Shown here: piece after piece, positions 4,994 to 32,994 of the stretch
Numbering within the stretch: the stretch's first letter is position 1
Layout of the letters: every line of letters begins with the position of its first letter
From: Thiomicrorhabdus sp. Milos-T2
GTDB taxonomy: Bacteria > Pseudomonadota > Gammaproteobacteria > Thiomicrospirales > Thiomicrospiraceae
Length of the DNA stretch: 36,313 bases
NCBI RefSeq assembly: GCF_000702325.1
Contig: NZ_KL370891.1
Coordinates: 420,209-456,521, forward strand
Direction: 5' to 3'
Notes under the pieces: generated by a model
The model's input: only the letters and a program-made list of their open reading frames with translations
Databases searched by the model: none
Told to the model about the DNA's origin: nothing
Translations under genes and position numbers: made by a program

Positions 4994-5554
4994 ATGCGTT
5001 GGTTTCAATTTTTAATATTAGGATTTAGCTTGTTATATAGCTACCAGGCCTGGTCATATGCTGAACCTTGTCAGTTAGTTGCTAAGATGGCGGGTAATCA
5101 TGAGTATAAGCAGAAACCTATGCGTCTTGCCACTATGACTCAGCCTGATGAAATTCCTGCTGAATGGCATTTAAGCTTGATAGAGCAGCATGGTAGTTGG
5201 TCTATTTTTCAAACTAACCAGGCCTGGTTTCTTAAAGAGACGTGTGCTCCACTCTCTAAACGCAATGAGGCTAATGGTCATATTGTTGAGTTTATGCCTG
5301 TTTTATTGAATTTAAAAACGGATTCTAATGCGGTGATTACGGGAACGTTTATTATTAAGACTTATCACAAACGAGATTTAGATAAGGTTGTTCAGCGCTA
5401 TGGTTTTAAAGAGCTCAGTCCTCTGCCTAACCCTCAGTCTCTGATTGTGGATGTGAAGCCAACAAGTTCTTATGATTTATTGATTAGAGCATTGGATTTA
5501 GATAAAGACGTTGATTTGGCTTTGCCATTATTGAGTGAACCGCGTAAACGTTAG
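4994..5554 (+). CDS. Small exported protein, possible protease prodomain/chaperone-like fold
   Basis: 186 residues, not confidently recognised. It starts with a signal peptide (MRWFQFLILGFSLLYSYQAWSYA, cleavage near residue 23) and so is probably periplasmic. Two cysteines lie in the mature part (EPCQL and KETCAPL) and could pair. The C-terminal ~75 residues (TGTFIIKTYHKRDLDKVVQRYGFKELSPLPN...LIRALDLDKDVDLALPLL) resemble the beta-alpha-beta folds of subtilase propeptides and of the external chaperone of Aeromonas serine protease (ASP); it ends in a basic tail EPRKR. No subtilisin-like protease gene is in the window, so a chaperone or inhibitor role is only a suggestion. Two copies of CCAGGCCTGG lie inside the gene, both coding Gln-Ala-Trp. 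It converges on the thioredoxin-like gene across a shared terminator. Confidence 0.75.
   Translation: MRWFQFLILGFSLLYSYQAWSYAEPCQLVAKMAGNHEYKQKPMRLATMTQPDEIPAEWHLSLIEQHGSWSIFQTNQAWFLKETCAPLSKRNEANGHIVEFMPVLLNLKTDSNAVITGTFIIKTYHKRDLDKVVQRYGFKELSPLPNPQSLIVDVKPTSSYDLLIRALDLDKDVDLALPLLSEPRKR
5043..5054. repeat. CCAGGCCTGG dispersed palindrome, copy 1
   Basis: ACCAGGCCTGGT, coding Q-A-W in the exported-protein gene. Member of the family discussed in the findings. Confidence 0.85.
5216..5229. repeat. CCAGGCCTGG dispersed palindrome, copy 2
   Basis: A 14-base palindrome (AACCAGGCCTGGTT), again coding Q-A-W, in the same gene as copy 1. Confidence 0.85.
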
Positions 5555-5653
5555 TTTACGTGCTTTGTTTGAATCTGATTTGTTAAATCGTTGAGTTTAA
5601 TTTTGATTTGTACTTAATAAAAACATGTATCAAGTAAAAAGTTGTATCAAATT

Positions 5654-5683
5654 AAAAAGGCTTCTCAATTGAGAAGCCTTTTT
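5654..5683. terminator. Bidirectional intrinsic terminator between convergent genes
   Basis: A 30-base perfect palindrome: an A5 run, GGCTTCTCAATTGAGAAGCC, then a T5 run. It lies between the plus-strand gene ending at 5554 and the minus-strand gene ending at 5704, so it can stop transcription from both sides. Confidence 0.9.
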
Positions 5684-5703
5684 GATTGAAGTGAGAGGAG
5701 GGG

Positions 5704-6231
5704 TTAGTATTGCACCTTGCTCTCTTTTATCATTTTATAGATATCAACTCGCTTATCGTTACCCAGTGCTTTTAAACCTTGGTTAATAACTTGTTCAAGG
5801 TTTCCGGGGTAGAACTCTTCTAGCGTTAAGCCAAGAATAGGTTCGGCAATGAGTTCGCCTTTTGAGTTATAGACGTGAGTGGTTGGAGCAACGATGACTT
5901 TTTGAGAGGGTGGAAAGGTTTTCATTTCGATATCCTTGCCAGAAAAGTCTTTCATTTGCCAATGAGCACGATCCATAATGACTTGCCTAAATTCAGCATA
6001 ATCTTCAATATTGGTGGTTTCTAAAAGAGGATGGATAATATTCTCTTCGAGTTTTTTACAATAGTGACACCAGGTGGCGGTAAAGAATATAACCACCGGT
6101 ATATTATACTTTTTAGCGGTATTAGCGGTTTTTTGTAAATCAACAGCAAGAGGTAGTATTTCCCCAGCTTTTACATTTGAAAACGATACTAGTAGAGCCA
6201 TAGAGAGGCTAAAAATGAATTTCTTTGACAT
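5704..6231 (-). CDS. Periplasmic thioredoxin-fold protein (SoxW-like)
   Basis: 175 residues with a signal peptide (about residues 1-22, ending VKA). The redox motif is W54-C55-H-Y-C58 in FFTATWCHYCKKLEEN, followed by the long insertion and cis-Pro region (VIVAPTTHVYNSKGELI) of thioredoxin-fold proteins. It resembles the periplasmic thioredoxins of the SoxW/thioredoxin_7 type that reduce cysteines of exported sulfur-oxidation or cytochrome proteins; the actual partner cannot be read from this window. Strong ribosome site AAGGAG before the ATG. It follows the lipoprotein gene by 37 bases and is probably cotranscribed with it. Confidence 0.8.
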   Translation of the reverse strand: MSKKFIFSLSMALLVSFSNVKAGEILPLAVDLQKTANTAKKYNIPVVIFFTATWCHYCKKLEENIIHPLLETTNIEDYAEFRQVIMDRAHWQMKDFSGKDIEMKTFPPSQKVIVAPTTHVYNSKGELIAEPILGLTLEEFYPGNLEQVINQGLKALGNDKRVDIYKMIKESKVQY

Positions 6232-6268
6232 TATCTATGCTCCTTAGTCAATTAAATTGTGGTGAAGA

Positions 6269-6916
6269 CTACAAATAGTGACGTCTTTGGGTTCTACAAT
6301 GGCTGGCAGACTCTTTTACAAACAGTCTGATATTATCTAGACTTTCATAAGACGAACTATATAAACTTTTTTTGTAGTTACTACCGCATGCCCAATGGCC
6401 ATCGCGAAGTAATGATATGCGTTTACTTGAGCTGTATTTAGGGTTGTCTAAATATAAATAGACGCCGTTACCATGCTGAGCATAAACAAGGTAAGCGGTT
6501 TCATTAGAATTGTAGTGCTTTTTGGATTCTTCTAGTCTCAATTCAATCTGTTTAGCTTCACCACGGGCAATTTGGTAGGTATCTTCCATAATATTATAAT
6601 GGCGTTTGCCGGACTTGTAATCCCCTCCTAGAATGTTGACCATAATCACATTGCCATTTTCTGGGTTGTTGTATAAGGCGTCTAGACGTTTCTTTTCAGC
6701 AATATCTCGCTTTAGTTGTAATTCACGCTCTTTAGCGGCAGCTTTCATGCGAATGACTCTTTGTTCTTCATTATATTTTTGCTGCTTTAAGAGTAGGGCT
6801 TGACGTTCTTGAGGCGAAATGGATTTCCATTGTTCTTCACTCATGCCTAAAGGATAAGAGCTGGCACAGGCGGTTAATAAGCTAAATAGGGCTAAGATGA
6901 ATAAAGCTTTTTTCAT
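6269..6916 (-). CDS. Lipoprotein of unknown function
   Basis: 215 residues. The lipobox LLTAC near residues 13-17 marks lipid attachment at Cys17, so it is membrane-anchored. After it comes MSEEQWKSISPQERQALLLKQQ, a motif of uncharacterised gammaproteobacterial lipoproteins, then a charged, coiled-coil-like Lys/Glu/Arg stretch (~50-80). The C-terminal half (~90-205) is beta-rich and contains two cysteines (HWACGSN and SHCRTQ) that may form a disulfide. Ribosome site AGGAA precedes the ATG. Specific function is not recognised. Confidence 0.75.
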   Translation of the reverse strand: MKKALFILALFSLLTACASSYPLGMSEEQWKSISPQERQALLLKQQKYNEEQRVIRMKAAAKERELQLKRDIAEKKRLDALYNNPENGNVIMVNILGGDYKSGKRHYNIMEDTYQIARGEAKQIELRLEESKKHYNSNETAYLVYAQHGNGVYLYLDNPKYSSSKRISLLRDGHWACGSNYKKSLYSSSYESLDNIRLFVKESASHCRTQRRHYL

Positions 6917-6952
6917 GAAAATTCCTTTCTGGGGATAAATTTTTTAAGCCTT

Positions 6953-6966
6953 TACCAGGCCTGGTA
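6953..6966. repeat. CCAGGCCTGG dispersed palindrome, intergenic copy 3
   Basis: The 14-base palindrome TACCAGGCCTGGTA lies 10 bases beyond the ubiB stop codon, between ubiB and the lipoprotein gene. It has no T-run and so is not an ordinary terminator. Confidence 0.85.
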
Positions 6967-6975
6967 GGTTTATCA

Positions 6976-8589
6976 CTATTTCTTAATTAAGAAGAGTCCA
7001 CCGGTTATTAATAAGCCTAATTGAATCCAATCTTGGTATTGCGATTCAATAGGGAGTAGTAATCCAAACAGTATTAATACAAACCCAATTGCCCTTTGGC
7101 GTTGCTGGCGATTTTGTTGTTCAAGTTGAGCTTCAATCTTAGCGATTTGCTGTGACTGAATATTTAGACCTTGATGCGATAATCTATTTAAGGTGCTATG
7201 CACCAGGCCTGGTATCTCGGGCGCTTGTTCCATCCAGAAAGGTAGGTTGTTTTTAACTTTTTTGGCCAGTCCTTTTGGTCCAACGCGATCTTGCATCCAA
7301 TCTTCTAAGAATGGTTTTGCAGTATCCCATAGATCTAATTCATCATCTAGTTGGCGACCTAGACCTTCAATGTTTAGTAAGGTTTTCTGCAGTAAGACAA
7401 GTTGCGGTTGTACTTCCATGCCAAAGCGGCGTGCCGTTTGAAATAGGCGCATAAGCACTAAGCCAAAAGAGATATCTTTTAGCGGTCTATCCCAGATAGG
7501 TTCACATACTGAACGAATAGCCGATTCTAATTCATTAACACGTGTTTCGCGAGGAACCCATTCAGACTCAATATGGAGTTCCGATACTCTGAGGTAGTCA
7601 CGGTTAAAGAAGGCTAAAAAGTTTTCAGCAAGATAGCGCTGATCTTCTGGGGTAAGTGTTCCCATTATGCCAAAATCAATTGCGGCATAACGACCGTCAG
7701 GCAGAACAAATATGTTCCCTGGATGCATATCTGCATGGAAAAAGTTGTGTTTGAAGACTTGAGTGAAAAAGATGATGACACCTTTAGCACTTAAGTCGGT
7801 AAGGTCAATGCCTGCTTCAATCAGTTTTTCGGTTTCGCTAATGCGAATACCGCGAATGCGTTCCATCGTCATCACACTTTCAGAGGTGTGAGACCAATAA
7901 ACTTCTGGTACATAAAGTAATTCAGAATTATCAAAATTACGCTTTAACTGCCCCGCATTTGCCGCTTCGCGAATCATATCGAGTTCATCTAAAATGGTTT
8001 TTTCAAACTCTGCGACCACCTCAACAGGGTGCAAGCGGCGAGCAATTTTAACAGCGGCTTCAAGTAGTTTTGCTAGGCTGAACATAATGGAGACATCTTG
8101 TTCAATCACGGGTTTAATGTCTGGACGAACGACTTTAACCACAACTTCCGTTCCTGAATGCATGGTGGCTTCGTGCACTTGAGCAATTGATGCGGATGCC
8201 ATAGGTACAGGATTAAAACTCGCAAAGGCTTCTTCTACCGTTTGGTTTAAACCTTGTTCAATTAGAGCTAAAGAGTGATTTTCATCAAAAGGTGGGCAGT
8301 CATCTTGGAGTTTAGCGAGTTCAAGTGAAATATCGTGCGGTAATAAATCTTTACGTGTTGATAAGGCTTGACCCAGTTTAATAAAAATAGGCCCTAATTC
8401 TTCTAAAGATAAGCGTATACGTTCTCCACGTGAAGCGTTAGAGCCACTATTCCAGTTCCACGGAAAAATTTTGTTTACCAAAATTAGCCACGCATATTTA
8501 GTGTCGCTCAATACCAACTTATCGATCTGGTAATGGCTTAACACGCGGTTAATTTTGATAATGCGGAGAATTTTTTTAAATATCTTCAT
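6976..8589 (-). CDS. ubiB: UbiB, ABC1-family kinase-like protein of ubiquinone synthesis
   Basis: 537 residues, normal length. It has the ABC1/UbiB marks: the KxGQ motif (IFIKLGQALSTR, K71-Q74), an Ala/Ser nucleotide loop (ASASIAQVHEA, 131-141), the conserved Lys (VVVKVVRPDI, ~152), HADMHPGNIF and the DFG metal motif (AAIDFGIMG). Two C-terminal membrane helices (RAIGFVLILFGLLLPIE and DWIQLGLLITGGLFLIKK) anchor it to the inner membrane. Known members have ATPase activity and help bring hydrophobic ubiquinone intermediates to the Ubi enzymes. It is last in the ubiE-ubiJ-ubiB set, 58 bases after ubiJ. One dispersed palindrome copy lies within it. The ATG has no clear ribosome site. Confidence 0.96.
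   Translation of the reverse strand: MKIFKKILRIIKINRVLSHYQIDKLVLSDTKYAWLILVNKIFPWNWNSGSNASRGERIRLSLEELGPIFIKLGQALSTRKDLLPHDISLELAKLQDDCPPFDENHSLALIEQGLNQTVEEAFASFNPVPMASASIAQVHEATMHSGTEVVVKVVRPDIKPVIEQDVSIMFSLAKLLEAAVKIARRLHPVEVVAEFEKTILDELDMIREAANAGQLKRNFDNSELLYVPEVYWSHTSESVMTMERIRGIRISETEKLIEAGIDLTDLSAKGVIIFFTQVFKHNFFHADMHPGNIFVLPDGRYAAIDFGIMGTLTPEDQRYLAENFLAFFNRDYLRVSELHIESEWVPRETRVNELESAIRSVCEPIWDRPLKDISFGLVLMRLFQTARRFGMEVQPQLVLLQKTLLNIEGLGRQLDDELDLWDTAKPFLEDWMQDRVGPKGLAKKVKNNLPFWMEQAPEIPGLVHSTLNRLSHQGLNIQSQQIAKIEAQLEQQNRQQRQRAIGFVLILFGLLLPIESQYQDWIQLGLLITGGLFLIKK
7202..7213. repeat. CCAGGCCTGG dispersed palindrome, copy 4
   Basis: ACCAGGCCTGGT inside ubiB, read on the minus strand as I-P-G-L-V. 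Confidence 0.85.
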
Positions 8590-8647
8590 ATAGATTAGGT
8601 TGTCTTATAAATGTGGATTAGCATGATTTTAGTGTTTATTGGCATGC

Positions 8648-9256
8648 TTAATTAATGGTTTTACTGAGCTTTTCTATGCGTTCCGCAATTTGCTCAACCT
8701 TAGTTTGTGTTTGCTCAATGTCTTGTATTAAGTGAGACACTTGATTCTGAGTAGGAAGCGCATTGATTTCAAATTGCAGATATTCTCGAATGGTGTCACT
8801 CGCGTACTGTTTGGCGTGTTGTTTTTTTGCTAACAATGAACGCACACCATGACCCACTTTAAAAGCCACTAAGTCGCCGGTGTAATGTGAAAGGTGTTCT
8901 TCCCAATCAATCTCTAATTTTTGCATGGCATTGACAAATGTCTGTGCCGTGTTTAGGTCGCCTTTAATAAATTTATGTTCAAAAGGTTCTCCTAAACTAA
9001 GAGCGATGAGTTGCCTCATGCCGGTTTTTATGGTGGCGTCAGCTTCACCTTTTAGAAAACCTTGGGTAGAAATTTTGCACTGATTGATAATGCAAAATAT
9101 AGGCGTTTTTAAGGGAGCAATCCAAAGTTCAATGACTTTGCCATCCAGCGCTTCAAAAACACGCCCTTGCTCTTCATCTAAATGAATAGCCGTATTGATT
9201 GCTAATTCAATGGTTTTAGAAAAACTCAAATTTACAAGGCCTGGTTGTTTTGTCAT
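8648..9256 (-). CDS. ubiJ: UbiJ, SCP2-domain lipid-binding accessory factor
   Basis: 202 residues. Residues ~10-110 form an SCP2-like sterol-carrier domain (FCIINQCKISTQGFLKGEADATIKTG, GDLNTAQTFVNAMQKLEIDWEEHLS). The C-terminal helix (VSHLIQDIEQTQTKVEQIAERIEKLSKTI, ~172-201) is a coiled coil, the usual UbiJ layout. UbiJ binds ubiquinone intermediates and organises the soluble Ubi complex. Its place between ubiE and ubiB confirms the call. Unusually, 285 bases separate it from ubiE, filled largely by a structured repeat. A degenerate palindrome copy (AGGCCTGG, 9237-9244) is at its start, coding Q-P-G-L-V. Confidence 0.9.
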   Translation of the reverse strand: MTKQPGLVNLSFSKTIELAINTAIHLDEEQGRVFEALDGKVIELWIAPLKTPIFCIINQCKISTQGFLKGEADATIKTGMRQLIALSLGEPFEHKFIKGDLNTAQTFVNAMQKLEIDWEEHLSHYTGDLVAFKVGHGVRSLLAKKQHAKQYASDTIREYLQFEINALPTQNQVSHLIQDIEQTQTKVEQIAERIEKLSKTIN

Positions 9257-9325
9257 GACATAAATCCAATGTTAAATTGCATGATTTTAATGATATATAA
9301 ATCCATTAAGTGTTCTGTATTCAGT

Positions 9326-9351
9326 CTTATTTATTAAGCTTATTTATTAAG
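9326..9351. repeat. Tandem 13-bp repeat in the ubiE-ubiJ gap
   Basis: CTTATTTATTAAG occurs twice head to tail. It is AT-rich, in the untranslated gap, and no role is apparent. Confidence 0.6.
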
Positions 9352-9432
9352 TCTTATTCTAGATAGTTTAGAAGTATGTAATGCGCATTTACTTTTTATT
9401 TTGTAATTAAACAATCTATTGGTTTTAGGCAG

Positions 9433-10748: not shown

Positions 10749-12071
10749 TTATAAAATGTACTGTGATAAATCTTGGTCAACAGCCAACTCACCTAAACGT
10801 TCATCAACCATTGCGGCATTAACAATAATGTTAGCACCAGGCATGGTAGGTGCTTCAAAGGAGACATCTTCCAGTAAACGTTCTAATACGGTGTGCAAAC
10901 GACGTGCGCCAATATTTTCTGTGCTTTCGTTAACCTGGTAGGCAATCTCGGCCAAACGTTCAATGCCATCTTCAGTAAAGCTTAACTCTACGCCTTCTGT
11001 TTTTAGTAGGGCAATGGCTTGTGTGGTTAATGCTGCTTTTGGCTCTGTTAAAATTCGCACAAAATCTTCTACACGTAAAGACTGCAATTCTACTCTAATG
11101 GGTAAGCGACCTTGTAGCTCAGGAATTAAATCGGATGGCTTAGAAAGATGAAAGGCTCCCGAAGCGATAAATAGAATATGGTCGGTTTTTATCATGCCAA
11201 ATTTAGTAGATACAGTGCTACCTTCAATTAAGGGTAATAGGTCACGCTGTACCCCTTCACGAGAGACTTCTCCACCGCCACTAGCATCTTGGCGTTTGGC
11301 CACTTTGTCAATTTCGTCAATAAATACAATCCCGTTTTGTTCAACACTTTCAATGGCTTGTGATTTAATGTCTTCTTCATTAACTAAACGCTGAGCTTCT
11401 TCTTCTGTTAGGGCTTTGAGCGCTTTGTTAATAGGCAGTTTACGTTTTTCTTTTTTGTCTTTGCCCATGCCTTCAAACATACCCTGCAATTGCTGGGTCA
11501 TCTCTTCCATGCCTGGTGCGCCTAAAATTTCAACATGTGCTGGTGTTGCCGCTAAGTCAATTTCAATCTCTTTAGTATCTAAATCGCCTTCACGTAAACG
11601 TTTGCGAAACTTTTGACGAGTTTCTGACATATTGTCATAACTCTCTTCTTCACGACCACGAGCAGGGGGCAGTAAAATGTCTAAAATACGTTCTTCTGCG
11701 TTATCTTCTGCTTTACGTTGCACATTTTGAATGGCGTTTTCACGCATCATTTTTACAGCGCTTTCTGCTAGGTCACGAATAATGGATTCTACATCGCGTC
11801 CAACGTAACCCACTTCAGTAAATTTAGTGGCTTCAATTTTTAAAAAAGGCGCATTTGCTAATTTAGCTAAACGACGAGCAATTTCTGTTTTACCTACCCC
11901 GGTAGGACCAATCATTAGAATGTTTTTTGGCGTGACTTCTGTACGAAGATCATCCGCAAGTTGAGCGCGTCTCCAGCGATTACGCAAGGCTATGGCTACG
12001 GCTCTTTTAGCTTCAGCCTGACCAACAATGTGAGAATCTAAACTGTTAACGATTTCTTTTGGCGTCATCAT
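10749..12071 (-). CDS. hslU: HslU, ATPase unfoldase of the HslVU protease
   Basis: 440 residues. N-terminal [21 protein letters not shown] is diagnostic; Walker A GPTGVGKT at 55-62; the GYVGRDVE pore motif (~88-95); the I-domain in the middle; Walker B VFIDEIDK; sensor/arginine region [17 protein letters not shown]; and a C-terminus ending DLSQYIL, the tail that inserts into HslV and activates it. It unfolds substrates for the HslV peptidase. Its partner hslV is not adjacent but 13 kb away on the other strand. It is first in a minus-strand set with DUF971 and ubiE. Two consecutive ATG codons (12071 and 12068) could start it. Confidence 0.97.
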
Positions 12072-13784: not shown

Positions 13785-14792
13785 ATGACGACGCTTAAAG
13801 CGAATTTTAGTCCTTCAAAAAATCATGCTTTAGGCAGTTTTATTCGCCATTTGCAATCTCAAAACAAATCCATTCATACGGTTAAAAACTATCAGCGAGA
13901 TATTGAAGACTTTTTAGGGTTTTATTTGGCGGATGATTTAGAGGTTAGTGTTGCCCAAAATACAGAAAATCAAACGTTTGATCCAGAAAAACATAAATCT
14001 CAGTTAGGTAATGCGATTGTCGGCTTTAAGGATTGGTCGTTAATCGATTCTCAGGGTATTCGCGCCTTTTTAGCCTATCGAGTACAGCATGGAATTAGTG
14101 CTCGAACTTTAGCTAGGCAGCTCTCTGCAATTCGTTCTTTTTATGACTATTTGTTAGAAAAAACGTTAGTCCTTAAAAACCCCGCTAAAGGTGTTAAGGC
14201 ACCCAAACAACCACAGCCTTTGCCAAAAAGTGTCGATGTGGATTGGATGCAACGTTTATTAGACCAGCCGCTAGAAACTTGGCAGGATGTTCGTGATCAA
14301 GCGATGTTTGAACTCCTATATTCTGCTGGCTTACGTGTCTCGGAATTGGCTGAACTCGATTTATCACCAGGCCTGGATGAATCTCAGTCTGGTTGGGTTC
14401 GTGTTTTAGGTAAGGGGCAAAAAGAACGTTTAGCACCGGTAGGATCTAAATCACTTTTGGCCTTAACGAACTGGCTAGAGATTCGTAATGAATACGCTAA
14501 CGACGATGAGCAAGCGGTTTTTGTGAATCAGCGTGGTAATCGTTTAAGCGTGCGTTCCATTCAAAATCAATTAGACAAACGCACAACCCTAGCAGGCCTG
14601 CCAACTAAGATGTCACCTCACAGATTGCGACACGCCTGTGCCACTCATGTGTTGGAATCTAGTGGCGATTTAAGAGCGGTTCAAGAGATTTTAGGGCACG
14701 CAAACCTTTCTACTACTCAAATCTATACTAAGTTAGATCTTCAGCATTTAGCCCAGGTTTACGATAAAGCACATCCTCGTGCAAAAAAATAA
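13785..14792 (+). CDS. xerC: XerC, tyrosine recombinase for chromosome dimer resolution
   Basis: 335 residues. N-terminal core-binding domain (LGSFIRHLQSQNKSIHTVKNYQRDIEDFLGFY) and C-terminal catalytic domain with R184 (GLRVSELAEL), K210, H279 and R282 (SPHRLRHACATHVL), H305 (LGHANLSTTQIY) and nucleophile Y314. With XerD it recombines dif sites. It is longer than the usual ~300 residues because of an insertion at about 50-82 (VSVAQNTENQTFDPEKHKSQ), which makes the linker between helices unusual. Context dapF-DUF484-xerC supports XerC over XerD. One palindrome copy lies at 14367. Confidence 0.95.
   Translation: MTTLKANFSPSKNHALGSFIRHLQSQNKSIHTVKNYQRDIEDFLGFYLADDLEVSVAQNTENQTFDPEKHKSQLGNAIVGFKDWSLIDSQGIRAFLAYRVQHGISARTLARQLSAIRSFYDYLLEKTLVLKNPAKGVKAPKQPQPLPKSVDVDWMQRLLDQPLETWQDVRDQAMFELLYSAGLRVSELAELDLSPGLDESQSGWVRVLGKGQKERLAPVGSKSLLALTNWLEIRNEYANDDEQAVFVNQRGNRLSVRSIQNQLDKRTTLAGLPTKMSPHRLRHACATHVLESSGDLRAVQEILGHANLSTTQIYTKLDLQHLAQVYDKAHPRAKK
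14367..14376. repeat. CCAGGCCTGG dispersed palindrome, copy 5
   Basis: Exact 10-mer inside xerC, coding S-P-G-L-D. A degenerate relative (GCAGGCCTGC, 14592-14601) lies further on in the same gene. Confidence 0.8.
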
Positions 14793-18100: not shown

Positions 18101-21100
18101 CAGATGCTAGTGAAAGTCAATCAGGAGCAACGGTTCCGAGTGAGACGATTACATACACTTTTAAAGACCAAGATGGTGATGTTGCAACTGCGAGTCAAGT
18201 GGTTAAGGTCACTGATGGTGCTGACCCTAGTATTGGTAATCCTGTTGATCAAACTGTTAACGAAGCCAATTTGGCTGCAGGTTCAAGCCCGGATAATTCT
18301 GCTTTAACGCAGACGGGCAGTTTAGGTGTTACAAAAGGTTCGGATGCAATAAATACGACTTTTGATTTAGATCAACCAGGCCTGGTAAGTTCATCTTCTT
18401 CTGTTTATAGCTCTGGTGGTGTTGATGTTGTTTATAGTGTAAGTGCAGATGGTTTGACTTTAACGGCATATACAACGGATATTAATAGTCCTGTTTTTAC
18501 TGCACAAATCAATGATTCAACAAATAATGCTGCTAGTTATAGTGTGACATTGCTTAAACCATTAGATCACTTAGCAAGTGTTGTAGATAGTAATAATGAT
18601 ATTGTTATTCCTTTGTATTTTACTGTTACGGATAGTGATGGGGATGCGGTACCTTCTTCTTCTTTTAAATTAACGATTATTGATGACAGTCCAAGTACGA
18701 CACAATCTCTATCAGTTTATGAAGAAGGGTTAAGTGGTGCGCATGATACTTCAGCAACCATTAACACTAATGCAGATGCGACTCAATCTAATACCACTAT
18801 TACCACTCAAGGTACTTATGGTTTTGCTGAAATTAATGCCGATGGAACCTTAACGTATACCCCTAGTTTTGATGGCTCTAATGCAATTGCTAGCAACTAT
18901 AGTGGGCAAGATACCATTATTTACGAGACAATTTTGGATGATGGTATCACAAAATCAACCACGACGATTGGGGTCACAATTAATTCTTTAACAGATGCGC
19001 CAGTTTTAGCGGTACAGCCTGATGTGACTACAAACGAAGATTCCTTGGTTGATTTAGGGTTAACGCTTCCAGCAATCAGTGATGCTACTGATCAAAATGG
19101 AGCGGGTACTGGTGACCATGCAGAACGTTTAGGCTACATTACCTTGAACAATCTAGATAGTGGCGTAGAAATTTACCAAGCAGATGGCAAAACCTTATTA
19201 TTTACCGGTGCTAACGATAGCATGAAAATTTCGATTGTTGACGGAAGCGGTAATTTAGATACAAGCATTCATCATACTGACCTTGATCCAAATGCAGCAG
19301 GTGTTATCAAATTAACTCAAGCCGAATTTGAATCATTAAAACTGTTACCTGCTGAAAATAAGCATAATGATATTGATATGACTTTAAAGGTAACCAGCTA
19401 TGAGGTTGATGACAGTGGTAATTTATTAACGTCAATCCCAGGAGCTGAATCAACCAGCGATGTTCACGTTGAAGTCCTAGCAGTAACAGATACGGCAAGT
19501 CTAAGCCTAGCTCAAAATAGTTACAGCGTTAATGAAGATACACCGCTTACATTAACCAATGATTTAGTTGAAGGGTTTAAGTCAACATTCGATATTGATG
19601 GTTCTGAAAAACTTTGGTACGAAGTATCAGGCCTGGTTGAAGGAACAAAAGTTACCATTAACGGTAAAACTTATACCGCAGATGCAAGTGGCAAAATTGA
19701 TAGTAGTGCCAATAAAATCACGATTGATGCAACGGATAAAAATCCTGCTTTTAGCATTAAACCACCCGCTGATTACAGCGGTGGGGATATGAATTCAGTC
19801 ACCGTTACCCTCAATACCCAAGATAGTGATGGTGATTCAACAACTACGCCAGCAATAGAATCTCAATCGGTTACATTTGCATTAACGGTTAACCCAGTTG
19901 CAGGTGATGTAACCATTGCAACTCCGCAAGCAGGAGTAGAAGATACTCCCATCTATCTCTTCAAACAAACCGATGGAAGCTCAATCTTTACGGTTACTGA
20001 CACCAATGGTGCAGCGACTGAAAGTATTACTAATGTCGGTGTGTTAAAAACATCGATTCCGACAGGAGCGACACTTTCTGGATTTGCTAGCGACGATACA
20101 AACTACTATTATTTTGATGTCAATAATTTAGCAAGCTATACCATTACACCTCCAGCACATAGTAGTGCTGATATGACATTGTCCTACTTTGTTGAAACAA
20201 CTGATGGTGTTGGTGTTAATAAGAACGTTAATACCCAAACGGTAGATAAGACTATTGTAGTGAGTGCCGTTAGTGAAACGGATGTAACTGATTCAGATGG
20301 TTCGAGTGCCAATGATGTTCTTTGGAATGCTTCTCATGATTACGGGGCTTTAGGTCAAGAAGACCAGGCCTGGTTAGATTTAAACAGTGGTTTTAGTCTG
20401 TTTGCTACGAATGAAGACACGAGTGAAACAGACCTTGCGTTGATTTCAATAAATACCAACTCAGCAGGTGGTGATGTCACCAGTTTGTATGGTTCTAAGT
20501 TGCAGTATAGTGATGGTTCGACAACTCATACTTTAACGTTTTCTGCAAATCAACAGGTGTTAGAAATTCCTGCTGAATACCTCGATACTCTACAATTTAG
20601 TCCCCTTGCCAACTTTAGTGGCAATGTGGTGTTGGATATGCAAGTTCAAACTCAGGATTTTGATGAAGATACTGGTACAGCGGTTACCCCTTGGCTTTCT
20701 GATGCACGTCAACTTACCTTTGATATTACCCCTGTAGCAGATGACGTTACATTAGCGGTAAAACAAAGTGATGGTAACGAAGACTCTGGCCGAGATGCAA
20801 CGGGTGTAATAACTAATAATGGCACTGACGGAATCCCTCTTTACATTAAGCCAACTTCCGATGATACGGATGGTAGCCAAACTTATGACTTAACCTTGGG
20901 GGCTATTCCCAGTGGAGCAAGTATTTCGTATGATGGTTCACTTATTTATCTGGATAGTCACTCATCTGGCAGTGTTACGATTATTAGCTTTGATTATGCC
21001 AAACCGTTGTATATTGTGGCACCTCACAATAGCAACGAAGACATTACCTTAACGGCATCGGCTATTGCTAAGGATGGAAATGCAACTAGTGCGGAAAGCC

Positions 21101-24100
21101 CAACTTTAGATGTGTTGGTAAAAATCAAAGGGGTTGCCGATAGCGTTGTTAATAATAACTTAGCAAGTGAAACGGCAACGGATGATAATGCAACCACTCA
21201 TGATTTTAATAAAATTATGAGTGAAGCTGATTTTGAAGATAATGGAATTTTGCTGAATAGTGTCTTTGGTACACCTGCAAATATTGCAAGTTATGATGAC
21301 GATAGTCCAGACGTTAATTCAGAATCTGTGAGTGTGGTCATAAGCGGTTTAGCGACTAATTTTACTTTGGTGAATGGAACCTTTATTGGCGGAACAGGAG
21401 TTGACCGTAAATGGAGTATGACCTTAGAAGAGTTTAAGGCGACCTCTGGTAATGTTATTTCAATTGAAGGGGCAAAGAACTTCAGCGGACAAGTCGATTT
21501 TAACATTAACTTTATTACCACTGAAAATGATGGTAATAGCCTAACTCCTGATACGCCTCAGGCAGCGAGTGTTTTAGTTACACCAATTGCTGAAGCAGCC
21601 ATGTCTTTAGCCACTCAGTCAACAGAAGATGTGCTAACAAAAATGAACTTAGACGTGGTTCATGTAAATGAAGATAATGATGAAACCTTGTCCTTGGTAT
21701 GGATTAAACAAGCAGATATTAGCAATCAAAACTTTACAGTTTATGTTGGTAATTCAACCAATACGCCATTAACAAGTAACTTGTCTGGAGTGACTGAAGC
21801 AGATTTTAAAGGCGTGACTTTTCTAAAACTTGAATCTAGTGTATTTAATGACCTTTATGTTCAATATGATCCTCAAGTAGGCGTGGATAGTGACGATATT
21901 GCCATTAAGTATCAAGTAGAAGACACCGTGACGGTAGATGGTAACCCATATACCAACGCTCTTGGTCCAGTAGCTGCGAATTATAGTCTTGTAAATGCGG
22001 CTGTAACAGATAGTGTCGTGCAAACAATTACTAGTTTTGATGGTTATGATTCTAGCAAAACAACAGTGAGTGGCAGTGATATTACCTTAACCGGCAATGA
22101 TACATTAAATGTTAATTTAACGATGACTAGCATTGATACCGATAGCTCTGAAAATATTACTAAACTGGTTATTGAGGGTGTTCCCAACGGAATAAGCGTA
22201 CAAGGAGCAGACTACATTGGAGATACCTCAATAACTGGTGGAACAGAGTTTAGCGGGACTTGGACGATAAATTTTGATTTAAGTGATACAGCTTTTGATA
22301 TGGATACCGATGGCGTCAGTTATCCTTTAGTTTTCTTGATTGATGGTGAACCTGCTGAGGGTAGCTATGCGGTTGATATTACGGCTTATAATCAAGATGG
22401 AATTGTGAGTAGAACTTTTGATACAGATTCATTTAACTTTACTGTTCCTAGCGCATCCAGTTTTGATAGTCAAAATACCGGCTCGCCAATGACCATTGAT
22501 GCGTTTGAAGAAAATAGTCCTCCAGTTGTAATAACTGAAGACACTTCATTCACCTTAGATACCGCAATTAATGCGCAAGTATCCGGTTCTTCAACATTTT
22601 CTATTACATTACAAAATCTAAACCATTGTTCTGTTGCGGGTGCTGAACCTTATACAGTAAATGGCAAAACCGTCTATGTTATAACAGGTTCAGGAAGCGA
22701 TATTGAAGCCGCATTAGCAACGGTTACGGTTACACCAGATGAAAATTTTAATAGTAATGATGGCGAACCGCTTGCATTAGAGGCTGTGTTAACGACTTAC
22801 GCTTCTGGTGGCCAGCAACAAACCCAGACGTTTGATCTCTCTCAAAATGTTACCCCTGTTACGGATGAATTGACGCTAGATGAAACGTTAACTTATTTAA
22901 CAGCGGACTCTGTCGTTAGCTCAACACCCCAAGAAGATGGCTCTTATAATATTTCAATTGCTATTGATTCTGTTGATCAAAACTATACTTTAGTACAAGG
23001 GTCAAATGACAATACACGATTAACGGATATCACCATTACGCATTCAGGAGTAGATGGTGAGTTAAGTTGGAATGGTGGGTCTATAAATTTAAATAGTGGA
23101 AATCATTCAGCAACTGTGCCATACAGTGAATTAAATGACCTAACTTTCACACCAAAAGCAGACGCAAGTGGCGCAGCAACATTTGACTATACTATATATG
23201 ACCAAGAAAACGGTGCAAATAATATTCAGACAACTGCTGGAAGCTTTAATTTTGATATACAGCCTGTTGTTGATGGGCTAGATTTAACAAATTTAACAGT
23301 AAGTGGTCTTGAAGATAATCTTATCGAAATTAAGGCTAATGGCACCAGCTTATCAGATAGTGGTTTACTCCAAGATACCGACGGTAGTGAGTCTATTCAA
23401 AGCCTTTTTGTGAATAATGTCCCTGATGGATTTTTGGTATTTTATGGCGCAAGTGGTTCGACGACTCTTGCGCAAAACACGGGTAATAACGGTTCGCCTG
23501 ATGAAAACCTTTGGAATATTCCAATTTCAGGAGGCAGTGTTCCTCAGGTTTGGATAGCCGCGCCTGAAAATTATGCAGGAACCTTGGCTGCTTTGACGCT
23601 TCAAACCTCTGTAAAAGATGGCAATGTGTCAACATTGCTTTCAAGCAATTTCTCAGCCTCATGGAGTGCGGTAGCTGATGATATTAGCATTTCACCAACT
23701 AAAACATTTGGTGATGAAGCGACGACCATAGATTTAAATTTAAATGCCTCTATGCAAGATATTGATGGCTCAGAAACCGTTAAGATTATCTTAACAGGTA
23801 ATGGTTCGACATTACCTGATGGCATTGTTTTCAGTGCCGACGGTAGCTCCATTGTTTCAAGTTATGATAATTCATCGCAAACCTATACCTTATCAGGGGT
23901 TACGTATGATCAAATAAACAATGTGGTTATGACCCTGCCTCAGGGCATGAAAGGCGACTTTAGCGTCGATGTAACTGCGCAAACCGTTGAACTGAGTAAT
24001 GCTGATATAGGGACCTTGGTGAGCGGTAATTTTAATATGGCCATTACCTCACAAGCAAGTGGCGTAACCGCATTTACTCCAAACGTTGGCAATCAAGTGA

Positions 24101-25273: not shown

Positions 25274-25807
25274 ATGTCTTTTCATGGAACAACAATTTTG
25301 TGTGCTAAACGTAATGGCCAAATGGTGATTGGGGGCGATGGTCAGGTAACATTGGGTCATATTGTTATGAAAGGTAATGCCCGTAAGGTGCGCCGTTTAT
25401 ACAATGGTCAGGTGATTGCAGGTTTTGCTGGAGCAACCGCAGATGCATTTACCTTGTTTGAACGTTTTGAAGGACGTTTACAAACTCATAATGGCCAATT
25501 AATGCGTGCCGCCGTTGAAATGGCTAAAGACTGGCGTACTGATCGCGCTTTACGCAAATTAGAGGCAATGATGTTGGTGGCGGATAAAGATTATATGCTG
25601 TTAATTTCCGGTACTGGAGATGTGATTGAACCGCAAGATGACTTTATTGCCATCGGTTCAGGCGGAAGTTATGCTCATTCTGCGGCACAAGCCTTGATGG
25701 AAAATACAGAATTATCAGCACGAGATGTGGTCGAAAAATCACTCCATATTGCTGGAAATTTATGTATTTACACTAATCATAATTTAACCATTGAAGAGTT
25801 AAGCTAA
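25274..25807 (+). CDS. hslV: HslV, proteolytic subunit of the HslVU protease
   Basis: 177 residues. After a short leader MSFHG comes the catalytic N-terminal threonine (T6, in [12 protein letters not shown]), exposed by processing as in other HslV proteins. Family motifs follow: [79 protein letters not shown] and [13 protein letters not shown]. HslV forms a two-ring peptidase that degrades proteins fed by HslU. In most relatives hslV directly precedes hslU; here hslU is on the opposite strand 13 kb away, with the adhesin lying just before hslV. Strong AAAGGA ribosome site. Confidence 0.97.
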
Positions 25808-25904
25808 AGGGCTTTTATACCCAATGCTGTAATAGAATTACCGATTTACTTCCTCTTAAAAGGGGGTAAATGGCTTGGTAAAAACAAATTTACTGGAGAG
25901 TTTG

Positions 25905-26489
25905 ATGGCGAGTCAAGACATTGATAATCAAAATAATGAATCTCAAAAAGAATCTGAAATTAATAACCAAGGTATTGCCGAAAGGGTCGTTGAATCGGCT
26001 TTATGGAACAGCCGTTTTGTAGTGCTAGTTGCGGTAATAGCCAGTCTGTTTACGGCATTTGCTATTTTTTATACGACTACGGTAGATGTGTTTTACACCA
26101 TTATTCACCTAAGTCATTATCACGAGATGGATGATGCTGGACGAGCCTTGTTAAAAGCACAAACGGTTGCTCATATAGTTGGTTCTGTTGATGGTTACCT
26201 ATTGGGTGCAATTTTGCTGATTTTCTCTTTAGGTTTATATGAACTGTTTATTTCAAAAATTGATATTGCAGGCAGTAAACACGGGGCGAGTAATATTCTA
26301 TTTATTAATTCACTCGATGACTTAAAAGACCGTTTAGCAAAAGTGATAGTGCTGATTTTAATTGTTATGTTTTTTGAACAAGCCATTTTTCTAAAGCCAA
26401 CAGAGCCACTTGAACTGCTCTATTATTCTTTGGCGATTATGATGGTTTCTTTAGCACTATATTTATCGCATAAAGCTTATGAACATTGA
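25905..26489 (+). CDS. YqhA family (UPF0114) inner-membrane protein
   Basis: About 194 residues from the ATG at 25905, which has GGAG at a normal distance; a TTG at 25875 would add 10 residues but lacks such a site. A polar N-terminus is followed by about four membrane helices (FVVLVAVIASLFTAFAIFY, YLLGAILLIFSLGLYELF, VIVLILIVMFFEQAIFL and LLYYSLAIMMVSLALYL). SVDGYLLG...LFISKID and the LDDLKDRLAKVI segment fit the YqhA/UPF0114 family. Its function is not established. It follows hslV by 97 bases and ends before a strong shared terminator. Confidence 0.85.
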   Translation: MASQDIDNQNNESQKESEINNQGIAERVVESALWNSRFVVLVAVIASLFTAFAIFYTTTVDVFYTIIHLSHYHEMDDAGRALLKAQTVAHIVGSVDGYLLGAILLIFSLGLYELFISKIDIAGSKHGASNILFINSLDDLKDRLAKVIVLILIVMFFEQAIFLKPTEPLELLYYSLAIMMVSLALYLSHKAYEH

Positions 26490-26603: not shown

Positions 26604-26617
26604 TACCAGGCCTGGTA
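26604..26617. repeat. CCAGGCCTGG dispersed palindrome, intergenic copy 8
   Basis: TACCAGGCCTGGTA, identical over 14 bases to the intergenic copy at 6953-6966, and likewise placed just beyond the stop codon of a minus-strand gene (waaA). Confidence 0.85.
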
Positions 26618-26647: not shown

Positions 26648-28003
26648 TTAAGACTCTAAATGTGGCTCTAAATAGGGTTCTAAATAAGGCTTTAAGGCTT
26701 GCAGGGTTCTGTCTACAGCCCCTGTTTGTTGGGCAAAGCATTTGTAGCCTTGGTTAGCAAGTTTGTTTGCCTGGCTTTTATGGGTGATGAGTTGCTCTAA
26801 GGTTTGTGCGAGTTCATGACTATTGTCTACAATTTTAACGCCTTCTTGGTTAACAAACGGTTCAAATAACGCCGCCAGGTTTTGATAATTTGGTCCAGAC
26901 AATACGGGTTTGTTTAACGCGGCTGGCTCTAAAATATTATGGCCACCAAATGGCACTAAACTGCCTCCAATAAAAGCAATATCCGCCACGGAAAACCATA
27001 GCATAAGCTCTCCAACACTATCCGCTAGATAAACTTGTGTGTCTGTTTTAACTTCATTACTTTGGCTGCGTTGTTGCCAAATTAATGAGTTTTCAGATAA
27101 TAAGTCGGCAACTGGTTGAAAACGATCTGCATGCCTTGGCACTAATATCAGCAATGCATTGGGCTGGCTTTTAAGAAGTTCTTGGTGTGCATCCAAGATT
27201 AACTGTTCTTCACTCGCTTTGTTTTCACTATGAATTGGATGAGCATGAGTACTCGCCGCTACCCAAATAGGGCGTTCTAATAGTTGATTTTGTTGTTTCC
27301 AGTTATGAGCTCGGTCACTTAAATCCTCAGCAATATTTAAATCAAACTTTAGATTTCCTAAGGTTTTAATTTTACTTTCTTCAGCTCCCAAGGCTTTAAA
27401 GTGTTCTGCATCGGTTGCAAATTGAGCACTAATAAATTGGGTTTGGTTTAATGCATTAGCAATCAGTTTACCGCCCCATTTTTGGTAGGCTTTAAACGAA
27501 GATTCCTTTAAACGGGCATTAATCAAGATAACGGGAATATTCTGTTTTTTACAGGCCTGGTAAAGATTAGGCCAAATCTCTGTTTCCACCATGATCACTA
27601 ATTTGGGTTTGATTTGGTGTAAAAAACGTTTAATTGCAAAAGGGTAGTCGTAAGGCAGCATTTGATGTTGAATCGCAACCGGGGAGAATTGTAATGCTTG
27701 TAATGCACCCTGCGTTGAACCATTAGTAACGGTAAGGGGTAAATTGGGATATTGCTTTTTTAAGGCGCTTAATAAAGGAAATATAGAGCGGGTTTCACCT
27801 ACGGAAACTGCATGAATCCAAATTCCATCAGTTTGGTAATTTTGGCGATTAAAGCCAAATCGACTTCTAAAACAGTCTGGAATTTCTGGTAAGTCTGGAT
27901 TTTGAAGCTGTTGTTTTTGGTGTTTTCGGCATCGTTTCCAACCTGAATAAGCAATGAATGGCATTGCCAGAGTGGTTAGAAGTTGGTAGCTAAACAGATT
28001 CAT
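26648..28003 (-). CDS. waaA: WaaA (KdtA), Kdo transferase
   Basis: 451 residues. Adds 3-deoxy-D-manno-oct-2-ulosonic acid (Kdo) from CMP-Kdo to lipid A precursor at the inner membrane. N-terminal membrane helix (LFSYQLLTTLAMPFIAYSGW), then IWIHAVSVGETRSIFPLL, LTVTNGSTQGA, MVETEIWPNLYQAC and ILINARLKESSFKAYQKWG, all hallmarks of the GT30 family; the C-terminal half has AFIGGSLVPFGGHNILEPAALNKPVLSGP. The last residues (LEPYLEPHLES) come from a 12-base tandem repeat. A nine-base palindrome relative lies at 27552. Precedes the terminator/palindrome region; 68 bases after kdsD. Confidence 0.96.
   Translation of the reverse strand: MNLFSYQLLTTLAMPFIAYSGWKRCRKHQKQQLQNPDLPEIPDCFRSRFGFNRQNYQTDGIWIHAVSVGETRSIFPLLSALKKQYPNLPLTVTNGSTQGALQALQFSPVAIQHQMLPYDYPFAIKRFLHQIKPKLVIMVETEIWPNLYQACKKQNIPVILINARLKESSFKAYQKWGGKLIANALNQTQFISAQFATDAEHFKALGAEESKIKTLGNLKFDLNIAEDLSDRAHNWKQQNQLLERPIWVAASTHAHPIHSENKASEEQLILDAHQELLKSQPNALLILVPRHADRFQPVADLLSENSLIWQQRSQSNEVKTDTQVYLADSVGELMLWFSVADIAFIGGSLVPFGGHNILEPAALNKPVLSGPNYQNLAALFEPFVNQEGVKIVDNSHELAQTLEQLITHKSQANKLANQGYKCFAQQTGAVDRTLQALKPYLEPYLEPHLES
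26651..26690. repeat. 12-bp tandem repeat at the 3' end of waaA
   Basis: About three units of (G)GCTCTAAATAG-like sequence, coding a repeated LEP(Y/H) four-residue tail. Length may vary by slippage without shifting the frame. Confidence 0.6.
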
Positions 28004-29013: not shown

Positions 29014-29103
29014 AATTTATAGCTAACCTTAATTGTAAGACCTTTGCAAAGGCCTCATTGAGTTTGTTTATTTTCTAAAAACACGTGTTTTAAAAATCGT
29101 GTT

Positions 29104-29763: not shown

Positions 29764-29829
29764 GATGAGGTTTCCTGATAAACTGTTGGCTCATTTTAAT
29801 CTATCTAAGAGTTTTTGGTAAGGAATCTT

Positions 29830-31263: not shown

Positions 31264-31265
31264 CG

Positions 31266-31838
31266 ATGAGTAATATAAAAATCAATTTTGAGCATGCCAT
31301 TCTTGAAAACCAAAAAGCGATACAGTCAGTCATAGATCAAGCAGGCCTGGTAACTGAAGTTGTTAAGCAAATAGTTAAGTCTATCAATGATGGTGGAAAG
31401 GTAATTTGGCTAGGAAATGGCGGAAGTGCTGCCGATGCGCAACATATGGCTGCCGAATTAATGGTGCGTTATGTTAAAAATCGCCAGCCCATTGCTTCAA
31501 TTGCTTTAACAACAGACTCTTCAATTTTAACGGCTCATGCTAATGACTACGAATTTGACACGGTGTTTGCTCGTCAAATACAGGGTTTAGCCAAGCCTGG
31601 TGATGTGTTAATGGCGATGTCCACTTCGGGTAATAGTCAAAATGTGGTCAAAGCTATTGAAATGGCGCAACATATAGGTTGTGTAACCGTTGCTTTAACG
31701 GGTAACCAAGCCAGTTTAATGAGTCAAAAATCCGATTATTGTTTGCAGGTGACCTCCTCTGAGACTGCTCGCATTCAAGAAGCACACAGCTTTTTTAATC
31801 ATTTAGTCTGTGAAGGCTTGGATTCTATTTATGATTAA
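31266..31838 (+). CDS. gmhA: GmhA, phosphoheptose isomerase
   Basis: 190 residues. Converts sedoheptulose-7-phosphate to heptose-7-phosphate, the step before HldE. SIS-domain motifs VIWLGNGGSAADAQHMAAEL, FARQIQGLAKPGDVLMAMSTSGNS and SETARIQEAHSFFNHLVCE (with the active-site Glu and His) identify it; close in length to the E. coli enzyme. Two bases separate it from hldE. TATGATTAA, its last codons, is duplicated right after the stop. A nine-base palindrome relative at 31342 codes A-G-L-V. Confidence 0.95.
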   Translation: MSNIKINFEHAILENQKAIQSVIDQAGLVTEVVKQIVKSINDGGKVIWLGNGGSAADAQHMAAELMVRYVKNRQPIASIALTTDSSILTAHANDYEFDTVFARQIQGLAKPGDVLMAMSTSGNSQNVVKAIEMAQHIGCVTVALTGNQASLMSQKSDYCLQVTSSETARIQEAHSFFNHLVCEGLDSIYD

Positions 31839-31875
31839 TTTTATGATTAAACGCTCAAAAAATATGAGGTGGTAA

Positions 31876-32994
31876 ATGTATTATCTAGCAGGCGATATTG
31901 GTGGCACAAAAGCTTTGCTTCAACTTATTAAGATTAACGCAGAAAATAATACCCATATTACCTGCGGTCAAAAACGTTTCTTATGCCATAAATTCGACTC
32001 TCTAGAGTCAATCATTTCTTCATTTATCCGACCTTTAAATATTTCAAATCTTGTCATTGAGTCAGCTTGCTTTGGTTTGCCAGGCCCGGTTAATGGCAGC
32101 AAGGTAAAGCTAACTAATTTGCCTTGGATTGTTGATGCTCATCAAATAGAGAAAACTTGTTCAATACAAAAAGTACATTTTGTTAATGACTTTTATGCAG
32201 CCGCTTTAGGGGTGGATACTTTAACTGGTAAAGAACTCGTTTCACTTTATAGTCAAGATATCAGTAGTAAAGTAAATGAAATGAGTGTGCCAATGCCAAC
32301 ACAAGGAAATAGACTTGTTGTGGGGGCGGGTACGGGTTTAGGGGTCGCTCCGGTTTATTTTGATGGCAAGCAATTTTTACCTCAAAATTCTGAAGGTGGG
32401 CATTTTGAATTTGCCCCTATCTCAGACACTCAACAGATACTTTTGCAATGGTTATGGCAACAGTGGGAGCATGTCTCATATGAAAGGGTACTTTCTGGTC
32501 CAGGCCTAGAAACCCTATATGCTTTTTTTATTGCACACGATTTGCCCACGACTTATTCTGAAACAAGTTCACAAAATCTTAATAAAAATACACTACATTC
32601 AAGGCAAGATAATAAGGTAGGCTTAGATTTTACGGTAAAAGATTTTGACTTATCTCAAAAAAATCTCAACGCAGAGCAAATAAGCCAAGCTGCCGGCAAT
32701 GGCGATCCTGTGGCGATTAAAGCATTACTTGAATTTGTGACAATATATGGCGCTTTTATTGGTGCAGTTGCACTTGTTTGGCCAGCCCAAAATGGAATTT
32801 ATTTAGCGGGTGGTATTGCTGTTAAAATTCTTGATTGGATGCAAAAACCCTATTTTAAAAAAGCCTTTTTAGAAAAAGGCCGAATGACGCAGATAGTGGA
32901 AAGAACTCCAGTGTATTTAGTCACCGATGAATCGCTTGGTTTAAGAGGAGCAATGCGACAAAATCAAATTACTTCTGGTCTTAAATTATCTTGA
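31876..32994 (+). CDS. glk: Glucokinase
   Basis: 372 residues, ATP-dependent phosphorylation of glucose in the cytoplasm. Motifs: phosphate loop YLAGDIGGTKALLQL, CFGLPGPVNG, FVNDFYAAALGV (catalytic Asp), VVGAGTGLGVAPVY, SEGGHFEFAP and IYLAGGIA. About 50 residues longer than the E. coli enzyme, mostly from an insertion around 225-275 (SETSSQNLNKNTLHSRQDNK...). GAGGTGG precedes the ATG. It begins a plus-strand glycogen block with glgC and the GH57 gene, feeding or recycling glucose. Confidence 0.92.
   Translation: MYYLAGDIGGTKALLQLIKINAENNTHITCGQKRFLCHKFDSLESIISSFIRPLNISNLVIESACFGLPGPVNGSKVKLTNLPWIVDAHQIEKTCSIQKVHFVNDFYAAALGVDTLTGKELVSLYSQDISSKVNEMSVPMPTQGNRLVVGAGTGLGVAPVYFDGKQFLPQNSEGGHFEFAPISDTQQILLQWLWQQWEHVSYERVLSGPGLETLYAFFIAHDLPTTYSETSSQNLNKNTLHSRQDNKVGLDFTVKDFDLSQKNLNAEQISQAAGNGDPVAIKALLEFVTIYGAFIGAVALVWPAQNGIYLAGGIAVKILDWMQKPYFKKAFLEKGRMTQIVERTPVYLVTDESLGLRGAMRQNQITSGLKLS

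Follow-up and report, generated by a model that had tools for sequence, protein, structure and literature searches.

The 36,313-nucleotide stretch of DNA analyzed here (NZ_KL370891.1, positions 420,209 to 456,521; hereafter the window) carries eight exact copies of the palindromic 10-mer CCAGGCCTGG, and the genome to which it belongs carries hundreds. We lean toward the view that this palindrome forms the core of a sequence that resembles DNA uptake signals and belongs to one family, probably the Thiomicrospiraceae. A preliminary description of this DNA had likened the palindrome both to uptake sequences and to HIP1 (highly iterated palindrome 1) of cyanobacteria with Dcm-type methylation. As far as sequence can tell, the first of these leads is supported by the restriction to one family, the clade dialects (one of them non-palindromic), the combination of a core with T-tracts, conservation at synonymous positions, enrichment between genes and the presence of ComEC and prepilin genes; the second found no support among C5-cytosine methyltransferases.

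Abundance and family distribution of the palindrome

All eight exact copies were recovered where the preliminary description had placed them. It had considered the chance expectation tiny, and an order-3 Markov model indeed gives 0.017 for the window. Allowing up to one mismatch to CCAGGCCTGG, we found 17 matches (8 exact and 9 with one mismatch), compared to a mean of 0.43 and a maximum of 3 in 100 shuffles of the window. The one-mismatch forms listed earlier were all present, but two more, at 10837 and 11507, had been overlooked; they differ at core positions 7 and 4, respectively, and possibly occur by chance. In agreement with the earlier account, 12 of the 15 AGGCCT hexamers in the window extend to CAGGCCTG, and the copies at 6955 and 26606 lie between genes within the 14-mer TACCAGGCCTGGTA. 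However, the two CCWGG sites inside each copy abut and do not overlap as had been described.

Neither a Markov-like genome count nor clustering in this region alone, the outcomes named beforehand as speaking against the motif, was found. The genome of the window (G000; 2,655,367 bases in two contigs, C1 and C2) holds 612 copies of CCAGGCCTGG, far above expectation, and 0 of the reversed pattern used as a control; about 13 to 15 of the copies are duplicates made by an insertion sequence (IS). In a sample of 464,708 bases (17.5% of the genome), we counted 104 copies versus 0.26 expected (order-3 Markov), 80 of them in the form of the 12-mer ACCAGGCCTGGT. Copies were not significantly over-dispersed along the genome (p 0.14; 21 stretches of about 20 kb), and in 378 kb CCAGGCCTGG was the most over-represented palindromic 10-mer (393-fold, the next reaching 66-fold). 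Whereas the 464,708-base counts are free of overlap, about 13 kb was taken twice in the own-genome counts of flanks and placement, arm complementarity and dyad spacing. The small contig C2 seems denser in the motif (350 per Mb over 60 kb) than C1 (201 per Mb, a figure that includes a small double count). These numbers fall within the hundreds to thousands of copies of a 9- to 12-nt motif known for uptake signals, and a highly over-represented palindrome is equally a trait of HIP1.

We then compared the family of the window (f1), which we take to be the Thiomicrospiraceae. Its 60 genomes, among them the own genome, fall into 26 with 100 or more copies of CCAGGCCTGG (106 to 856) and 34 with 0 to 44. 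Of 370 genomes sampled from the class, 365 belong to other families; none of these held more than 46 copies, and the one with 46 spans 4.8 Mb. The family rich in the word is probably the Thiomicrospiraceae; the genus of the window (g1) is probably Thiomicrorhabdus, and another genus, g6, is presumed to hold Hydrogenovibrio. The 14-mer TACCAGGCCTGGTA is present in Hydrogenovibrio halophilus DSM 15072 (NZ_KB913033.1). Among the matches listed for it (80 contigs, of at least 104 stretches), 6 belonged to Thiomicrorhabdus, Thiomicrospira or Hydrogenovibrio and the rest were scattered across many taxa. A search of 2.9 million viral contigs gave 66 stretches with ACCAGGCCTGGTANNT, two of them on one contig, and was uninformative on hosts.

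Anatomy, dialects and constraint

The 10-mer sits at the center of a longer motif built on ACCAGGCCTGGT; counted from the dyad, a purine is found at 8 bp and T-tracts at 10 to 12 bp. The whole is dyad-symmetric, extends over about 24 to 26 bp and consists of an A-tract, ACCAGGCCTGGT and a T-tract. Its flanks are constrained: 87% of sites have T at +1, 89% have a purine at +3, the sequence is T-rich at +5 to +7, and the other side mirrors this pattern. The T-tracts lie about one helical turn from the dyad. These flanks are present at coding sites too and hence are not a terminator signature alone. One-mismatch forms were scarce, and 23 of the 37 found in 378 kb deviated at the first or last base. 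Scores of the left and right T-tracts were not anticorrelated (rho 0.07, p 0.53 in the own genome; rho 0.26, p 0.01 in other motif-rich genomes), indicating that the sites are two-sided and ruling out a hidden one-sided orientation of the palindromic sites. A T-tract 10 to 12 bp from the dyad was seen in eight of nine genome groups tested, on one side only in two groups.

Some relatives poor in CCAGGCCTGG carry a replacement word, ACCGGCCGGT, CAGGCCTG or the non-palindromic CCCARCCTGGYAGATTTT, with the T-tract spacing retained. G023, which has 0 copies of CCAGGCCTGG, holds 1117 copies of CCGGCCGGT on one strand and 1107 on the other, compared to control counts of 5 and 8; elsewhere among the 60 genomes this word reached at most 42 per strand, and the genome with 42 had a control count of 50. 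All three g6 genomes with 0, 1 and 0 copies of CCAGGCCTGG (G053, G055 and G057) hold 314, 331 and 376 copies of CCCARCCTGGYAG, strands summed (178/136, 182/149 and 195/181 per strand), compared to at most 1 per strand in the other 57 genomes, and the copies sampled in G053 and G055 continue into a form of CCCARCCTGGYAGATTTT. This g6 dialect is non-palindromic and 18 bases long, with a T-tract at 98 to 100% in one half and not above background in the other. From 38 kb of G017 and 40 kb of G025, also poor in CCAGGCCTGG (24 and 27 copies), we obtained 13 and 16 copies, respectively, of the inner CAGGCCTG, with varied outer bases (reversed control, 0). All these dialects have cores of 8 or 10 bp and a T-tract 10 to 12 bp from the dyad. 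A word search found no replacement dialect in G003, G019 and G024 (140 kb each) or in G014 and G026 (80 kb each). In G024, the highest-ranking words form long overlapping chains that resemble a longer repeat; in G043 (stretches L183 and L184), a further over-represented word, GCGGCTTAGAAAA, with its 10-mers present 15 to 19 times in 40 kb, may be a local repeat.

A tree of XerC from 31 genomes recovered the g6 dialect as one clade (support 100) and grouped G017 and G025 with G008 (support 85). Canonical genomes occurred in several places, and word-poor genomes included two groups and G003, which lies inside a canonical clade; support is partly weak, being below 80 at 11 of the 28 inner branches. 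Dialects confined to subclades with a common inner core are expected of uptake signals, and here part of the core and the T-tract spacing are common. Alternate HIPs, in contrast, are also palindromes, which CCCARCCTGGYAGATTTT is not.

Judging from the alignments, the sites are conserved at synonymous positions. The preliminary description had suggested looking at orthologous sites, and in five close motif-rich relatives (70 to 77% nucleotide identity, 20 to 21 genes), window sites coding the same residues were identical in 10 of 12 comparisons, which are not independent since they come from four window sites. The residues themselves were altered in 6 further comparisons. Control 10-mers with unchanged residues were identical in 12 to 20% (frame 0) and 7 to 13% (frame 2) of cases, and none of the four same-residue comparisons with four motif-poor or other-dialect genomes was identical. 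The site in xerC, coding P-G-L, could be followed further. The exact word stands there in 7 of 14 aligned relatives rich in CCAGGCCTGG, in which just 2 to 10% of aligned 10-mers match the window, and in none of 14 other relatives (11 word-poor and 3 of the g6 dialect), where the residues are kept via other codons.

To describe placement, we used 98 sites, i.e., the sampled copies minus 6 adjoining the insertion sequence, and open reading frames (ORFs) defined by a simple length rule and not by a gene finder. The stretches between ORFs, 13% of the DNA, held 34 of the 98 sites (p 3e-8), with the highest density between convergent ORFs (10 in 7.3 kb versus 3 in 11.5 kb between divergent ones). 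The other 64 were inside ORFs, where two of the three frames accounted for 59. A similar excess between ORFs was found for canonical sites of other genomes (46 of 120) and for the dialects of G023 (17 of 52) and of G053 plus G055 (21 of 28).

An IS4-family element and the sites of the window

The own genome carries a 1,298-bp element with CACTAGTGTCCGG ends and an IS4-family transposase (NCBIfam transpos_IS4_1, 244 bits; cut-off, 115). Its 13 full copies on C1 and C2 have an identity that rounds to 100%; one example, outside the window, is L126:15959-17256. Each of the 13 stands between two exact copies of CCAGGCCTGG in direct repeat, a 10-bp target duplication, and two partial copies also end at CCAGGCCTGG. 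The element is therefore specialized on the motif as its insertion site. The empty sites were intergenic in 13 of 13 cases, compared to 39 of 104 sites between ORFs (p 3e-6). Among the 60 family genomes, the only other match (E <=1e-40) was in G039, a genome of another genus with 747 motifs; its copies are at most 77% identical and contain stops, and all three have an end at CCAGGCCTGG, one of them at both ends.

The termini of the element resemble those of ISRm16-group copies of Sinorhizobium. Unlike our element, which targets one exact 10-bp palindrome, four such copies (transposase 41 to 42% identical) stand in other sequences and not in CCAGGCCTGG. Nor was such a target seen in 7 flank pairs, taken at provisional ends, of another IS4-type element in the own genome (33% identical). 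Target specificity thus seems to be a trait of this IS lineage. The duplication length fits the IS4 family, for which PMC2266710 gives about one helix turn. A second dispersed repeat of the own genome, built around the palindrome TAGCTAGCTA, has about 70 bases alike and two or three variants per arm and may be of the repetitive extragenic palindrome (REP) or miniature inverted-repeat transposable element (MITE) type; its 10-mer occurs at least 27 times in the own stretches (e.g., L117:6839, L133:519 and L226:14807). The words CAAAGGTCTC and CTCGTGCAA are over-represented in the own genome and in G018, whose stretches L167 and L168 lack TAGCTAGCTA.

Within the window, the ORF at 4994-5554 (+) holds exact copies at 5044..5053, which is exact at the orthologous place in G015, G009, G021 and G027, and at 5218..5227, where G009 has TCAGGCCTGG and the other aligned relatives have not kept the word. 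The first copy of TACCAGGCCTGGTA (6953..6966, exact core 6955-6964) lies between the ORFs 6269-6916 (-) and 6976-8589 (-). The latter is ubiB (NCBIfam UbiB, 735 bits; cut-off, 667) and contains the exact copy at 7203..7212, which is exact in G030 and G021 and altered together with the residues in G015, G009 and G027. A one-mismatch form, CAAGGCCTGG at 9235..9244 in the ORF 8648-9256 (-), is replaced by exact CCAGGCCTGG in all five close relatives. The gene xerC (13785-14792, +; top NCBIfam match XerC, 330.7 bits, slightly below the cut-off of 335.2) holds its P-G-L site, an exact copy, at 14367..14376 and, at 14592..14601, GCAGGCCTGC, in which both outer bases differ. Exact copies at 18376..18385 and 20364..20373 and the one-mismatch TCAGGCCTGG at 19627..19636 fall in an ORF of 3,236 amino acids (15181-24891, +), which we presume to resemble a large surface adhesin; it looks repetitive and ends with a GGxGxD-like stretch. 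The second copy of TACCAGGCCTGGTA (26604..26617, exact core 26606-26615) lies between the convergent ORFs 25875-26489 (+) and 26648-28003 (-), and the latter, matching the NCBIfam lipid IVA Kdo transferase, holds the one-mismatch ACAGGCCTGG at 27551..27560. Four more one-mismatch forms follow: GCAGGCCTGG (31341..31350) and CCAAGCCTGG (31591..31600; exact in G015 and G030) in the ORF 31266-31838 (+), and CCAGGCCCGG (32080..32089) and CCAGGCCTAG (32500..32509), both exact in G030, in a glucokinase-like ORF (31876-32994) that scores below the NCBIfam cut-offs.

Among the other genes of the window, the ORFs 10749-12071 (-) and 25274-25807 (+) are presumably HslU and HslV. Genes for these proteins are usually adjacent; here, they are 13 kb apart on opposite strands, with xerC and the 3,236-amino-acid ORF in between. 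Positions 3582-4688 encode a SoFic-type protein adenylyltransferase Fic, which scores 642.6 bits with NCBIfam NF046030 (cut-off, 550).

Competing explanations and known systems

If the palindrome is an uptake signal, it would be bound on free DNA by a protein of the cell surface, with a minor type IV pilin as the probable candidate, and motif-bearing DNA would preferentially be pulled in, passed through ComEC and recombined. Over many generations, this bias would let the motif accumulate and keep it at synonymous positions, and dialects would diverge along with the receptor. Insertion of the IS at a motif leaves the element between genes and flanked by two copies of the motif, from which it may benefit. 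Competence genes, which the preliminary description had proposed to look for, are present: ComEC was found in 54 of the 60 family genomes, among them that of the window, and 29 of the 30 motif-rich ones have it (the exception, G006, is 82% complete), and prepilin genes were found in 11 of 11 genomes scanned. Here, the motif-rich 30 are the 26 genomes with at least 100 copies of CCAGGCCTGG plus G023, G053, G055 and G057; the other 30 include G017 and G025 with their CAGGCCTG dialect. Since ComEC also occurs in most motif-poor genomes, its presence is consistent with uptake but does not discriminate.

Several observations weigh against an uptake signal. ComEC does not predict the motif, as G003, G014, G019, G024 and G026, in which no motif was found, have it. 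The binding protein, likewise proposed as a check, did not turn up: profile searches with N_methyl (PF07963) and GspH (PF12019) yielded no receptor candidate, the former giving prepilin clusters in motif-rich and motif-poor genomes alike and the latter matching in only 3 of 39 genomes, none of them motif-rich. The xerC site is retained in only half of the word-rich relatives, and G046 (genus g5) has no T-tract (32% versus 28% background, p 0.17). Our literature search, which left aside preprints and most subscription journals, returned nothing on natural transformation or uptake sequences in Thiomicrospira or Thiomicrorhabdus, and none of the matches listed for literature containing the 10-mer concerned such a system. 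To our knowledge, known uptake sequences are not palindromic, unlike the canonical core here; with its two-sided tracts, this core also lacks the directionality of the known uptake signals, which only the g6 dialect shows. The palindromic core and the missing receptor candidate are the main gaps. Lastly, a chromosomal DNA-binding protein with co-evolving sites would give many of the same signs.

Such a chromosomal dimeric protein is the leading rival. The motif would then be the site of an intracellular dimer with a chromosome-wide role in nucleoid organization, segregation or silencing, and the dialects would be co-evolved protein-site pairs. Two-fold symmetry, T-tracts that are not anticorrelated, a footprint of about 24 to 26 bp and the lack of over-dispersion suit a homodimer, and conservation of the sites fits selected binding sites. 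However, the strongly asymmetric dialect of three g6 genomes, the near-complete loss in the close relative G003 (2 copies) and the absence of regional clustering in the sampled 17.5% speak against it, and we consider this explanation unlikely, though one to be taken seriously. The uptake signal fits better than a methylase by-product or transposition, given the copy number, the family restriction, the dialects of the same geometry, the synonymous conservation and the core with its T-tract. In the model that PMC4390886 sets out for HIP1, the core is recognized by a methylase, and copies arise and persist through biased mismatch repair. The abundance of the palindrome, the other palindromes in relatives, which resemble the alternate HIPs of that text, and the concentration of one-mismatch forms at the end bases, given there for HIP1 too, are in agreement with it. 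Nevertheless, C5-cytosine methyltransferases (PF00145) do not track the word, which leaves this lead weak: they scored above the cut-off in 9 of 30 motif-rich versus 13 of 30 other family genomes (Fisher p 0.42), the own genome having a single match of 19.1 bits, below the 22-bit cut-off. Within the C5 class, no enzyme accompanies the motif consistently, as a cognate one would, and a Dcm-type cause was rejected because 21 of the 30 motif-rich genomes have none above the Pfam cut-off. The dialect ACCGGCCGGT has no CCWGG, and an 18-base non-palindromic dialect and T-tracts 10 to 12 bp from the dyad are unlike a type II methylase site. We regard a HIP1-like origin as improbable.

Even less can be said for intrinsic terminators or other RNA hairpins, although sites are enriched between ORFs, most densely at convergent ones, and in 3 of the 33 intergenic sites base pairing continues at 9 or more of the 11 positions farther out. 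Most sites are inside ORFs, and past the palindromic core the complementarity of the arms does not exceed that of shuffled pairs (637 of 2,000 shuffles reached the observed value for intergenic sites and 484 of 2,000 for coding sites). Uptake signals often form inverted repeats that also serve as terminators; in the motif described here, the enrichment between ORFs comes with no complementarity beyond the core. Terminator hairpins as the main cause are thus very improbable; a terminator role may be a secondary use of the sites. The flanking of all 13 full IS copies by CCAGGCCTGG could in turn suggest that the 10-mer was dispersed by target duplications of this element or of a relative now extinct. 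But 13 full and 2 partial copies stand against 612 sites, the IS matched beyond its own genome only in G039 while 26 of 60 genomes have at least 100 sites, an IS that requires the word as its target does not create it, and single sites are retained at conserved codons amid synonymous divergence. Transposition was therefore rejected as the origin of the copies and, as their main cause, is largely refuted and scarcely credible.

The DNA uptake sequence (DUS) of Neisseriaceae is non-palindromic. It resembles the motif described here in being a short, high-copy family motif with variants in subclades, and type IV pilin and ComEC genes are present here too; the dialects here differ in that they vary in symmetry and core length, and the N_methyl and GspH searches gave no ComP-like receptor. 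PMC12616744 describes the DUS as one uninterrupted motif reaching about 13 nt and names Neisseriaceae and Pasteurellaceae as the only families with known uptake signals. The uptake signal sequence (USS) of Pasteurellaceae, according to the same text, shares with our motif a short core with adjoining AT-rich tracts, hundreds to thousands of copies and subclade types. However, the sequences are unrelated, the core here is perfectly palindromic and in most genomes has a tract on either side, and the tract lies one turn away instead of two. HIP1 and alternate HIPs are likewise highly iterated GC-rich palindromes with other palindromes in some relatives and the most variable positions at the ends (PMC4390886); they differ in that our motif has no C5-methyltransferase association, has flanking T-tracts and includes a non-palindromic dialect. 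The density is 230 per Mb here versus about 500 to 2,500 per Mb given for HIP1 in that text, a word search of which found no mention of Thiomicrospira, Hydrogenovibrio or Dcm.

A bolder proposal, which we advance tentatively and with slightly less than even confidence, is that the motif represents a third, independently evolved uptake-signal system, with a palindromic signal, a symmetric receptor, at least four dialects of the same geometry (one of them directional) and an IS4-family transposon specific for the signal, so that the transposon inserts between genes and its spread by transformation would be favored. The two flanking uptake signals would favor such a spread of the IS, and a signal-targeting IS can serve directly as a natural reporter of how sites are recognized and illustrates a mobile element exploiting a signal. 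Under the rival explanation, too, it would be unusual for a binding site found all along the chromosome to change its sequence from one close relative to another. If the uptake signal is confirmed, this third case, in environmental sulfur bacteria, would combine dialects and a palindromic core with close relatives that lack the motif and so offer a comparative test of how such signals rise, switch and are lost.

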